From positions 33,164 through 97,163 of the IMG/VR virus record IMGVR_UViG_3300046535_001092: a stretch of 64,000 nucleotides of DNA, one strand, 5' to 3'. Positions 8,413 to 30,018 of the stretch are shown here, in pieces. The notes below the pieces were generated by a model, which was not told the DNA's origin, searched no databases, and saw only the letters and a program-made list of their open reading frames with translations. Position 1 is the stretch's first letter, and each line of letters starts with the position of its first letter. This stretch comes from a virus. The translations under genes were made by a program, and so were the position numbers.

Positions 8413-8617
8413 AAGCGTCCAATGTTCATATAGTGGGTGTGGCGATAGACGTAGACACCATGAGAATCCAGAGCCAAGAGGCATTAGAAATACCTTCATC
8501 GTTCCTGGAGATTCTAAAGGACCGTGGTTTTGCTCTATAGAGTGCTCAGCTTATTATAAAGCGGTAGGAGATAATGGAAGACCCAACGCGCCAACAGAAA
8601 ATAGACCTTATCCGTAA
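8396..8617 (+). CDS. small Cys-rich (zinc-binding) protein
   Basis: I use ATG 8396 with GGCAGAGGG upstream rather than GTG 8384. The 73-residue product has CSYSGCG near the N-terminus and WFCSIECS near residue 48, the four-cysteine spacing of a treble-clef or MYM-like zinc knuckle. Overlaps both neighbours. Function unknown. Confidence 0.6.
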   Translation: MTLRIKSVQCSYSGCGDRRRHHENPEPRGIRNTFIVPGDSKGPWFCSIECSAYYKAVGDNGRPNAPTENRPYP

Positions 8618-8726
8618 GCTAATGGATCGTGCTCTAGAGGCTATAGAAAGAGACTATCAAGAGGCTATGGCTAAGATCTACTTTAGTAAGGACTGGGGAC
8701 CGAAAGAAGAGGAAGAGGATCATTAG
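8574..8726 (+). CDS. 50-residue acidic helical protein
   Basis: ATG 8574 preceded by GTAGGAGATA; overlaps the previous gene by 44 bases and ends directly before the deaminase start. Predicted as one long helix with an acidic tail (KEEEEDH). Not recognised. Confidence 0.5.
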   Translation: MEDPTRQQKIDLIRKLMDRALEAIERDYQEAMAKIYFSKDWGPKEEEEDH

Positions 8727-9074
8727 GTGGACAAATCGGTAGACCCTGGACAGCTGGCGATAGACCTACTGTCTAGGTCCATATGTTCCGTACAGGTCGC
8801 AGCGGTCATTGTGGATAGAAAAGGTAGCATATTCGCATGGGGATGGAATTCCTGTGGTTCAGACGGGTATGGTGAACATGCAGAATGTGCTGCCATCAGG
8901 CGGGCAAATCAACGTAGGTTAAAGCATGCTACGATATATGTGGCTGCAAGGCGTAGGGATAGGAAGTGGGACAAGTGCGTAACTGCTAAGCCCTGTCTAT
9001 CTTGTCAGTATAGACTTGATAGATGGGGTCTTAGCGTGGTATTTAGAGATGGTAAAGGAGTGTGGAATGGGTGA
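8727..9074 (+). CDS. cytidine/deoxycytidylate deaminase-like protein
   Basis: 115 residues with the zinc-dependent deaminase signature HAE at 51-53 and PCLSC at 89-93, giving the H-C-C zinc site and the catalytic Glu52. It would deaminate a cytosine nucleoside or nucleotide, or an RNA/DNA base, in the cytoplasm. The GTG start directly abuts the preceding stop. Shorter than most dCMP deaminases (about 150-180), lacking the C-terminal helices, so the substrate is uncertain. Two deoxyribosyltransferase-like proteins, MazG and a DUF5664-type gene further downstream fit a nucleotide-pool role. Confidence 0.8.
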   Translation: MDKSVDPGQLAIDLLSRSICSVQVAAVIVDRKGSIFAWGWNSCGSDGYGEHAECAAIRRANQRRLKHATIYVAARRRDRKWDKCVTAKPCLSCQYRLDRWGLSVVFRDGKGVWNG

Positions 9075-11817: not shown

Positions 11818-11970
11818 GCTGAGGTGCCTGCCCCCGCAGGGGGCGAGGTGCATCAGCCGGGTCGCCCTCTCATCCTTACCCCACCCGCTCCGCAGCGTGG
11901 GGGGTCTGGGGGGAGCGGAGAAAGCTGGGGGGTACTTAGGGGGGTTTGAGTGAGTTAACTCACACAGTAG

Positions 11971-12038
11971 GGGTGATGGGTCACCCATCAGTGCTGCATG
12001 CCCTTTGTTTGCAGAGAGTTGTGGGTGATGGGTCACCC
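11971..12038. repeat. pair of operator-like direct repeats
   Basis: GGGTGATGGGTCACCC occurs at 11971-11986 and 12023-12038, 52 bases apart, i.e. about five helical turns. The first copy sits in a palindrome GATGGGT-C-ACCCATC. Spacing and symmetry suggest a protein-binding site upstream of the 12102 promoter. Confidence 0.6.
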
Positions 12039-12066
12039 CTCAAAATGCTGATGTAACTCAAAGTGT

Positions 12067-12076
12067 ACTGCGCAGT
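12067..12076. promoter_or_regulatory. palindrome ACTGCGCAGT
   Basis: Perfect 10-base palindrome 25 bases upstream of the -35 of the 12102 promoter. Its core CTGCGCAG is also the centre of the 14-base palindrome that lies between -35 and -10 of the 31848-31876 promoter, so both may be sites for the same regulator. Confidence 0.45.
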
Positions 12077-12101
12077 CGACACCACAACATATGGTGGTTT
12101 G

Positions 12102-12130
12102 TTGACATCTGTGGATGGTCGTGCTATCGT
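12102..12130 (+). promoter_or_regulatory. sigma70-type promoter for replication genes
   Basis: TTGACA at 12102-12107, 17-base spacer, TATCGT at 12125-12130. It lies 80 bases before the ATPase gene, with a possible 29-codon leader (12161-12250) running into that gene. Confidence 0.65.
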
Positions 12131-12210
12131 TTGAAATTCGGAATTTGTAAAGATGTAAATATGCCAAATCAACCTATCGTTATCAACGTTCGACAAAGTG
12201 GGGAGAATGA

Positions 12211-17072: not shown

Positions 17073-17102
17073 TTGACCCCCTAGCATGCGATGTGCTATA
17101 AT
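17073..17102 (+). promoter_or_regulatory. sigma70-type promoter for secreted-protein genes
   Basis: TTGACC at 17073-17078, 18-base spacer, perfect TATAAT at 17097-17102. Begins directly after the preceding stop and 37 bases before the two secreted-protein genes, so these form a separately controlled unit that could be expressed from a prophage or early. Confidence 0.75.
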
Positions 17103-17138: not shown

Positions 17139-17465
17139 ATGAAGAAACTGTTTGTTATGTTGATGTTACTGGTAAGCACAGCTGTATGTGCTCAAAGTAT
17201 GGTCGTTACTGGAAAGGTTACAAACCTAGTCGCTGTAGCAGTAACTACAGCCGAGGGAGATCAGGTTATTGAGACAGATGTTACAGTTGTCGATTCTAAG
17301 GGGAAGGGTACTACATTTAGGGTTAGAGGAGGAGATCTGAATGGCCTAACCTTAAGAGCTAGTTACGAACAGGTTCCCAAGAAGGGCGAGAATATGAAAG
17401 TTCACCTTGCTATGAAGAACGGTCACTATAGACTAGAGCATGGTCAACAGAGTGTGGAGAAGTAA
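17139..17465 (+). CDS. secreted small protein
   Basis: 108 residues with a clear Sec signal peptide (MKKLFVMLMLLVSTAVCA, probable cut after AQS). The mature part is beta-rich, with KVTNLVAVAVTTAEG and a GKGTTFRVRGGDL turn, like OB-fold periplasmic proteins. AAGGAG nine bases upstream. Its stop shares one base with the start of the metalloprotease, so they are co-expressed; it may be a chaperone, inhibitor or immunity factor for it. Confidence 0.7.
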   Translation: MKKLFVMLMLLVSTAVCAQSMVVTGKVTNLVAVAVTTAEGDQVIETDVTVVDSKGKGTTFRVRGGDLNGLTLRASYEQVPKKGENMKVHLAMKNGHYRLEHGQQSVEK

Positions 17466-18598
17466 TGTTTAAGAAACTACTACCGATTGCTATGCTCCTA
17501 AGCTGTGTCGTTGGGCTTGGGGCTTATGTCTCAAATGGTGTATTTTGGCCCAATGTTCCTGTAAAGTATTATATTAATACGGCTAATACTTCAGGAATGA
17601 ATCCTGCCACAGTTGTCTCAGATATTCAGGCAGGAGGTAATGCTTGGGCTACACAGGCTAGCTCAGGTGCTACCCTATCTTATCAAGGTACAACAAGTGA
17701 TCCTTGCACATTTGCTTATGATCAGAAGAATCATGTGTGCTTTAGGGTAGATTCTGGTGGGTGGATTGCTTATACCCAAATCTACACATTCACTGGTCAG
17801 ACAGCTATTCTTGATGCTGATATGATTGTGAACACTACCTATCCATTATTTACAGATGATCAACAATGTAATGGTGGATATTCTATTAAGAATACAGTTA
17901 CACATGAGTTTGGACATCTGTTTGGTCTAGGTCACTCAGCTGATCCTACAGCTACAATGTATCCTACTGCTAATGCTTGTGAGACAAGCAAAGAGGTGCT
18001 ATCAGCCGATGATATTGCTGGTATCCTTTCTCTATACCCTACAGCTGGACCTCCTCCACCTGCTGCACCAGTCTTAACCTCTGTTTCTCCATCTAGTGGC
18101 GCTCAGGGTACTACAGTTCCAGTAACATTGAGTGGTTCTAACTTTGTTATTAGTGGGACCTCTCCAAATATTAGTGGTAGTGGAGTTACATTTAGCAATA
18201 TTGTAGCAAATAACACTACATCTATGACGGCTAACTTTGTGATTAGCTCAGCAGCAGTTGCAGGTGCAAGAACAGTCACTGTAACCACATCAAGTGGAAC
18301 GAGTGGAACACAGCCATTTACAGTCACGGTTCCTCCTCCACCATCTGCTCCAGCTACCCCATCTAACCCCTCACCTGCCAACATGGGTACGGTTAGACAT
18401 AACTCCAACACTACTCTCACATGGGTTGCTGCGGGAGCTACCAGATACACAGTTGTACTTGATGGAGTTGCCCACGCAGTCACCCCCGCCAGTTATAAGG
18501 CCGGTAAGGTTAGCGTAGGAGTACATACATGGTCAGTTACAGCTACTAATAACACTGGTAGCACGAATGGTCCAACCTGGACATTTACATCTAACTAA
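17465..18598 (+). CDS. secreted metzincin (matrixin-like) protease with IPT/TIG domain
   Basis: 377 residues: signal peptide (1-20), then a catalytic domain with HEFGHLFGLGH (H147, E148, H151, H157), the zinc site HExxHxxGxxH of metzincins, and a Met-turn TMYP at 164-167. Residues 205-290 form an IPT/TIG beta domain (SVSPSSGAQGTTVPVTLSG) and the last 85 a second beta-sandwich of FN3 type. It should cleave proteins outside the inner membrane. Such proteins are bacterial rather than viral, so this is likely a captured host gene for envelope penetration or lysogenic conversion. Confidence 0.85.
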   Translation: MFKKLLPIAMLLSCVVGLGAYVSNGVFWPNVPVKYYINTANTSGMNPATVVSDIQAGGNAWATQASSGATLSYQGTTSDPCTFAYDQKNHVCFRVDSGGWIAYTQIYTFTGQTAILDADMIVNTTYPLFTDDQQCNGGYSIKNTVTHEFGHLFGLGHSADPTATMYPTANACETSKEVLSADDIAGILSLYPTAGPPPPAAPVLTSVSPSSGAQGTTVPVTLSGSNFVISGTSPNISGSGVTFSNIVANNTTSMTANFVISSAAVAGARTVTVTTSSGTSGTQPFTVTVPPPPSAPATPSNPSPANMGTVRHNSNTTLTWVAAGATRYTVVLDGVAHAVTPASYKAGKVSVGVHTWSVTATNNTGSTNGPTWTFTSN

Positions 18599-18615
18599 GG
18601 AACCTAGGGAGTTAA

Positions 18616-18687
18616 ATGTTCACCTTAAATAATCTATTGATTGTGTTAGCTGTTCTAGGGATTATCTACTTATTCCGTAGACTCTAA
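18616..18687 (+). CDS. 23-residue membrane peptide
   Basis: MFTLNNLLIVLAVLGIIYLFRRL, with GGAG-like AGGGAGTT upstream and one hydrophobic segment ending in a basic Arg-Arg. It follows the protease after 17 bases. Plausible toxin-like or small membrane regulator; support is moderate. Confidence 0.5.
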   Translation: MFTLNNLLIVLAVLGIIYLFRRL

Positions 18688-18699
18688 CTTCTTATGTAT

Positions 18700-18788
18700 G
18701 GTCGTGTGAGGACCCCCCACTGGGGGTGATACCTCTCAAACCATGGGGCTAAATGCCCTGGACGACCCCGGAGGTACTGAGACCCTCC
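18700..18788 (+). ncRNA. candidate structured RNA (three-way junction)
   Basis: The 89 bases can fold as a nested junction: outer helix 18700-18705 with 18762-18767 (GGTCGT/ACGACC); arm one 18708-18735 (GAGG/CCTC continuing into ACCCCC/GGGGGT with loop CACT); arm two 18741-18761 (CCA/TGG plus GGGC/GCCC, loop TAAAT). A third hairpin (18770-18774 with 18784-18788) follows, and then a terminator at 18800. No gene covers it on the + strand, and the pairing is too regular to be chance-looking. Class unknown: it is not a tRNA and lacks the hammerhead core. Confidence 0.5.
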
Positions 18789-18799
18789 ACCTATTGTGT

Positions 18800-18840
18800 C
18801 CCCAACCTCTTGCACCACGAGGGGTTGGGGATTGTTATTT
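18800..18840 (+). terminator. Rho-independent terminator
   Basis: CCCCAACC (18800-18807) pairs with GGTTGGGG (18823-18830), followed by ATTGTTATTT. It ends the secreted-protease unit and, if real, the structured RNA just upstream. Confidence 0.65.
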
Positions 18841-18861
18841 GTGGGCAGATCGTGGTAAGAT
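18832..18861 (+). promoter_or_regulatory. possible weak promoter
   Basis: TTGTTA at 18832-18837, 18-base spacer, TAAGAT at 18856-18861, just before the next gene and right after a terminator. Three mismatches to consensus make it tentative. Confidence 0.35.
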
Positions 18862-18873
18862 TGGAGAGTGAAA

Positions 18874-19056
18874 ATGAGCAAGGTTCCTGAGGTCCTCCCC
18901 ACCTTCTTAGTGAAGGCTATGTGGAGAGCGACAGCGATTAAAATGAAGGTAGTAGCTAAGGATGAAGAGGATGCTTGGGACAAGGCTGCGAAACTTGTAA
19001 AGAAGATGGAAGGGGGAAGTTCTTGTATAGAGATAAAGGTAATGGGGACGATCTAG
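18874..19056 (+). CDS. small hypothetical protein
   Basis: 60 residues from ATG 18874, GGAG seven bases upstream. Predicted helix-strand; K-rich (AIKMKVVAKDEEDAWDKAAKLVKKM). First gene after the terminator. Not recognised; the pattern KVVAKDEEDAWDKAAKLV resembles small phage proteins that follow a beta-alpha fold. Confidence 0.6.
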   Translation: MSKVPEVLPTFLVKAMWRATAIKMKVVAKDEEDAWDKAAKLVKKMEGGSSCIEIKVMGTI

Positions 19057-20801: not shown

Positions 20802-20833
20802 TAGCTTCGCTGTTAGAGTCGTGTAAGGTTGAC

Positions 20834-20868
20834 GGGGTAGGGGAATTGTCCTCTACCCCATTTGTGTC
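20834..20868 (+). terminator. Rho-independent terminator
   Basis: Ten-pair stem (20834-20843 with 20850-20859, one G-T pair, loop AATTGT) followed by ATTTGTGTCTT. It bounds the single-gene unit driven by the 20156 promoter. Confidence 0.7.
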
Positions 20869-20890
20869 TTAGGGGGTCCTAAAGGTAAAG

Positions 20891-29811: not shown

Positions 29812-29972
29812 CTGATGAACAGCTGTTAGAGGTAGTAGAGGCCATCGAGGAGAGACTCGATAGGCTAGAGTACAAAGTGTTTATGCGCCTATGGGATAGT
29901 CCTAAGCGTGTAAGGGAGGACCTAGAGAAGATTAAGAAGATCCAATCTAGGGTTAAGAAAGTCAGTAGATAA
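29808..29972 (+). CDS. 54-residue coiled-coil protein
   Basis: ATGA overlap. LLEVVEAIEERLDRLEYKVFMRLW and REDLEKIKKIQSRVKKV are two amphipathic helices. Last + strand gene, ending one base before the convergent terminator. Confidence 0.55.
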   Translation: MTDEQLLEVVEAIEERLDRLEYKVFMRLWDSPKRVREDLEKIKKIQSRVKKVSR

Positions 29973-30018
29973 TAAAAAAGGCCCCAACCAAGTTAATGGA
30001 AGGGGCCTTTAGTTTTTG
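29973..30018. terminator. bidirectional terminator between converging blocks
   Basis: AAAGGCCCC (29977-29985) pairs with GGGGCCTTT (30002-30010). A-rich sequence lies to the left and T-rich (AGTTTTT) to the right, so it can stop transcription from both directions. It marks the boundary of the + and - strand gene blocks. Confidence 0.8.

Follow-up and report, generated by a model that had tools for sequence, protein, structure and literature searches.

The gap behind the secreted-protease gene of this phage most probably holds the 3' untranslated trailer of an accessory cassette together with the intrinsic terminator at its end. The window, i.e., the whole stretch of 64,000 nucleotides analysed here, is part of a 97-kb viral record, in which the element is flanked by a metalloprotease gene (17465-18598) on one side and by a small gene at 18874 on the other. 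The original prediction had described a three-way junction, a hairpin and a Rho-independent terminator after the protease unit, and sequence and folding bear out that all three are present at their places (Table 1). Only the terminator among them is clearly above chance. No evidence of a new RNA emerged, and a processed small RNA is a possible but unsupported reading. Taken as an intrinsic terminator, the element is of importance solely for the annotation of transcription units in this phage.

The protease cassette and its terminator

The cassette begins with a promoter-like site and comprises two longer genes and a short open reading frame (ORF). The metalloprotease was recognized by Pfam family PF00413 (E 6.9e-15) and by NCBIfam family NF041905 (E 5.7e-20, below the cut-off of NF041905), and relatives of it were found neither in the phage collection nor in viral contigs. 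The family that it matches best is that of a myxobacterial sortase-dependent protease, and the gene adjoins the replication module of the phage. The original prediction placed the element correctly after the protease unit, without mentioning the likely 23-aa ORF that follows the protease gene; once this ORF is counted, the noncoding gap extends from approximately 18688 to 18873. Coding scores are uninformative for an ORF of such length. It weakly resembles the tail of a C-terminal sorting signal (TIGR03024, E 0.005, below the cut-off), and it could encode either a membrane peptide in its own right or an anchor that became detached from the protease.

Table 1. Features of the protease cassette, its trailer and the gene that follows (positions in the window).
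Feature	Position	Strand	Evidence or remark
Sigma-70-like promoter, TTGACC-18-TATAAT with TG extension	17073..17102	+	Predicted; 11/12 matches
108-aa protein, signal-peptide-like N-terminus, without family	17139..17465	+	
377-aa secreted matrixin-like (M10) metalloprotease	17465..18598	+	PF00413, NF041905
23-aa membrane-peptide ORF MFTLNNLLIVLAVLGIIYLFRRL, SD-like GGGAG	18616..18687	+	Sequence, translation
Three-way junction, foldable, in 3' UTR	18700..18767	+	Not beyond chance for gap
Small hairpin GGAGG/CCUCC	18770..18788	+	23/200 shuffles as stable
Intrinsic terminator: 15-bp stem, 5-nt loop, T-rich tail	18798..18841	+	z = -5.1
First gene past terminator	18874..19056	+	Kept in relative L004, 53% identity

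A promoter scan revealed no site with at least 9 of 12 matches between the protease gene and the element, and the folded region would therefore be transcribed solely as part of the protease mRNA, namely as its 3' UTR. The promoter before the cassette, with its 11 matches, and the lack of a comparable site in the gap both argue for the trailer reading. Downstream of the terminator are genes for replication, namely for a recombinase (SSAP), an SSB-like protein and a DNA polymerase, which are probably needed early. The window does not contain any tRNA or tmRNA. From this arrangement we infer that transcription would start at the predicted promoter, proceed through the genes for the 108-aa secreted protein, the metalloprotease and the 23-aa membrane peptide, and stop in the T-rich tract past the hairpin at 18798-18832, so that the cassette would be insulated from the replication genes. 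The GC-rich stems of the trailer may slow 3'-5' exonucleases and thereby stabilize the mRNA.

The terminator stem (18798-18832) consists of 15 uninterrupted base pairs with a predicted stability of -26 kcal/mol, and none of 200 shuffled sequences folded as well (z = -5.1). At 15 pairs, it is well past the seven that we required for a stable GC-rich hairpin. The stem is followed by TTGTTATTTGT, a tail that is rich in T up to about 18841, with the T-tract interrupted by G and A; the tract directly behind the stem was scored by the scan as TGTTATTTGT and satisfies the threshold of at least five T in eight positions. In every context that was folded, the stem paired with a probability near 1. The terminator hairpin is real and ordinary, with an imperfect T-tract, and its z value, its uninterrupted pairs and its near-complete pairing support the trailer reading.

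A riboswitch-like element or an attenuator had originally been considered. The near-complete pairing of the stem disfavours one with the terminator as its expression platform, which we regard as extremely unlikely. Two alternative folds of the junction region that differ by only 1.4 kcal/mol would suit such a device, but the terminator forms regardless of context, and no upstream strand is able to displace one of its arms: the strongest upstream duplexes with the arms are interrupted and reach -13.5 and -18.5 kcal/mol, as against -26.0 kcal/mol for the stem itself. Moreover, the element follows rather than precedes the cassette that it would have to control, and an Rfam match is lacking. Just as hard to credit is the idea that the stretch is protein-coding, in a 42-aa ORF on the plus strand (18743-18871) or a 99-aa ORF on the minus strand, with the folds being incidental. 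Each frame is open and has a weakly positive coding score (0.11 and 0.09 bits per codon, with 0.11 for the small gene at 18874), but the start at 18743 lacks a clear Shine-Dalgarno sequence upstream, the ORF on the minus strand starts with TTG and runs against its neighbours, and the 15-bp terminator hairpin would come to lie inside.

Other terminator-like structures were seen elsewhere. The terminator after the SSB-like gene (20834-20890 in the window) has a counterpart in the related contig L002 (1050-1100), where the place is kept and the sequence of the stem is different; TTTGTGTCTTAGG comes after each of them. A hairpin flanked by A-rich and T-rich sequence at 29972-30017, close to a switch of gene direction from plus to minus, is probably a bidirectional terminator.

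Folding of the trailer

The junction is a possible fold at about the level of chance for its gap, and the exact three-way arrangement is probably incidental. Its closing helix P1 (GGUCGU/ACGACC) encloses two inner arms between 18700 and 18767. When the 68 nt are cut out and folded alone, only one of 200 shuffled sequences is as stable (z = -3.16). However, the ends of this cut were picked to suit the fold, and the natural unit is everything between the preceding stop codon and the terminator (18688-18797). For this unit, 62 of 1000 shuffled sequences were at least as stable (z = -1.7), and a junction closed by at least six stacked pairs appeared in 139 of 1000. A tuned cut can look significant while the natural unit does not. 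The proposal of a candidate structured RNA holds in part: the fold can form and its 68-nt cut is unusually stable, but the gap as a whole is not. A folding energy no better than that of shuffled sequences had been named as grounds for giving up the proposal, and this is largely what untuned boundaries yield, the tuned cut being the exception.

Further comparisons place the junction in the context of the window. When 5328 plus-strand windows of 70 nt, spaced 12 nt apart, were ranked by their energy difference from shuffled sequences, that of the junction came about 51st. Among 253 mostly noncoding windows it was eighth, with its own terminator and the one that follows the SSB-like gene among those ranked higher. 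The hairpin at 18770-18788 is unremarkable on its own (Table 1). The reverse strand folds equally (z -3.8 for 18690-18767), since all stems are made of Watson-Crick pairs, and the fold thus shows no preference for the transcribed strand. The 100 nt upstream of the terminator (z -1.92) take seventh place among 36 such regions, each in front of a strong terminator-like site, from four records of related phages. That the whole gap folds at chance level and that the region upstream of the terminator is not exceptional both support the trailer reading; against it stand the stability of the 68-nt cut, which exceeds that of 199 of 200 shuffled sequences, the high GC content of the trailer (62% versus 48% for the window) and the imperfect T-tract. 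As a separate observation, the motif GTCGTGTRAGG is common to the element and a site at 20818; with one mismatch allowed, four matches were counted versus 1.3 expected, and 7 of 100 shuffled sequences contained as many.

The junction also has a competitor. With flanks included, it reaches -66.1 kcal/mol versus -64.7 kcal/mol for a fold with a hairpin formed by 18697-18702 and 18740-18745, and the probability of P1 ranged from 0.3 to 0.9, varying with the length of transcript included. When nascent transcripts starting at 18616 were folded, the alternative hairpin was present before synthesis had reached the 3' strand of the junction; according to these predictions, a near-isoenergetic alternative can form first during transcription. 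One might take the trailer for a bistable RNA of a new class, processed from the protease mRNA or acting within it, be it in trans as a small RNA or by allowing polymerase past the terminator and into the replication genes, and this we consider improbable. A functional trailer RNA would mean that the phage carries an RNA linked to a secreted protease; nothing that we found requires this.

We deem it very unlikely that the folded nascent RNA acts as a put-like antitermination element, i.e., that it modifies RNA polymerase, which would then pass the terminator and reach the replication genes. The element has the appropriate size of about 70 nt, is structured, and lies upstream of a terminator and before genes that are probably needed early, and the putRNA of phage HK022, of about 70 nt as well, works without a dedicated protein (PMC9378689). 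However, a three-way junction 1.6 kb away from the promoter departs from the put pattern, and two folds of nearly equal energy, together with absence in relatives, do not suggest a precise RNA machine.

The locus in related phages

The statement that the element belongs to no known class was upheld: with curated thresholds, Rfam gave no match in the window, and a permissive search of 18590-18900 gave matches at chance level only. Similar DNA in phages and plasmids was limited to short chance pieces. Gapped patterns of the RNA core, exact patterns of a kind that reaches only close relatives, had no hit in viral and genome contigs, and a covariance model built from the single sequence retrieved nothing but itself from the record that contains the window and from three records of related phages. 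A homologue able to show compensatory change was accordingly found neither in viral contigs, phages, plasmids and genome contigs nor in the three related phage records.

Relatives of the phage were sought via the SSAP recombinase, the SSB-like protein, the polymerase, the 108-aa protein and the metalloprotease. Three closely related IMG/VR contigs emerged: L002 (polymerase, 68% identity), L004 (SSAP, 64%, and SSB-like protein, 58%) and L005 (SSB-like protein, 57%). Only L004 spans the syntenic gap. In this contig the homologue of the 18874 gene (8547-8744) begins 52 bases past a gene resembling that for peptidyl-tRNA hydrolase (named by eye), and these 52 bases hold a promoter-like site directly before the homologue. 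Protease cassette, junction and terminator are absent from the syntenic place and from the remainder of the L004 record, and the presence of the promoter-like site without any of them is a further argument for the trailer reading. The cassette promoter and the promoter-like site of L004 have GCATGnGATGnnCTATAA in common. This comparison of two sequences suggests an insertion of the cassette, with the terminator at its end, between the 18874 gene and a promoter that was there before.

A dedicated small RNA, as originally envisaged, is unsupported, given that the gap lacks a promoter with at least 9 of 12 matches, that the junction does not exceed chance for its gap and that homologues were not found in the collections searched. 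Among the alternatives to the trailer reading, a small RNA processed from the 3' UTR is the best, even if it is unlikely. The combination of a structured trailer, a terminator at its end and no promoter of its own is found here as in known cases such as CisR, and an AU-rich single-stranded segment before the junction, CUUCUUAUGUAU, could serve as a cleavage site. Against this, conservation is missing, as no homologues were found, the whole gap folds at chance level, and the same architecture is common to any 3' UTR with a terminator.

The related contigs contain other structured regions. A recurrent junction-plus-terminator architecture was considered and rejected: the stretch at 918-1025 of L005 looks similar, without a convincing sequence relation. 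There, at 915-1025 behind the SSB-like gene, a three-way junction leads straight into a terminator-like hairpin (z -3.7), and another stretch with strong folding extends over 1025-1190 (z -3.3). In L002, about 200 nt (1095-1305) separate the SSB-like gene from its downstream neighbour; this gap folds into one multibranched unit with a long closing helix (z -2.6) and has no convincing match in Rfam. The same contig carries a tRNA at 280-351 (Rfam score 52.6) to which ARAGORN could not assign an anticodon; its anticodon arm, CTTGGTTTTAGCCAAG, would give a loop of six or eight nucleotides, and it is possibly an unusual lysine-like tRNA. In the window itself, a GC-rich intergenic region (11820-12140) with the palindromic repeats GATGGGTCACCCATC and GTGATGGGTCACCC beside promoter-like sites perhaps represents operators or an origin.

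Comparison with known systems

CisR originates in the 3' UTR of the mRNA for a secreted protease, prtV, from which RNase E releases it (PMC13250501). The region studied here shares with it the trailer of a secreted-protease mRNA, the terminator at the end and the lack of a promoter of its own; the likeness is one of architecture, and neither processing, conservation and targets nor a sequence relation is claimed. The put element of HK022, which folds into two stem-loops, is situated downstream of an early promoter (PMC9378689). Like put, the element described here is structured nascent phage RNA of about 70 nt before a terminator, but it is a three-way junction instead of two stem-loops, is far from its promoter and has no homologues in the collections searched.

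With its GC-rich, uninterrupted 15-bp stem, 5-nt loop and T-rich tail past the last gene of a unit, the terminator resembles intrinsic terminators in general; it differs in the interruption of the T-tract by G and A, and is ordinary otherwise. The cassette as a whole resembles the accessory cassettes of phages known as morons, in that a promoter, accessory genes and a terminator lie between conserved modules and are missing in a relative. Unlike in morons, the promoter may be an ancestral one that belongs to the downstream gene, and not an import, as a similar site is present at the syntenic place in L004.
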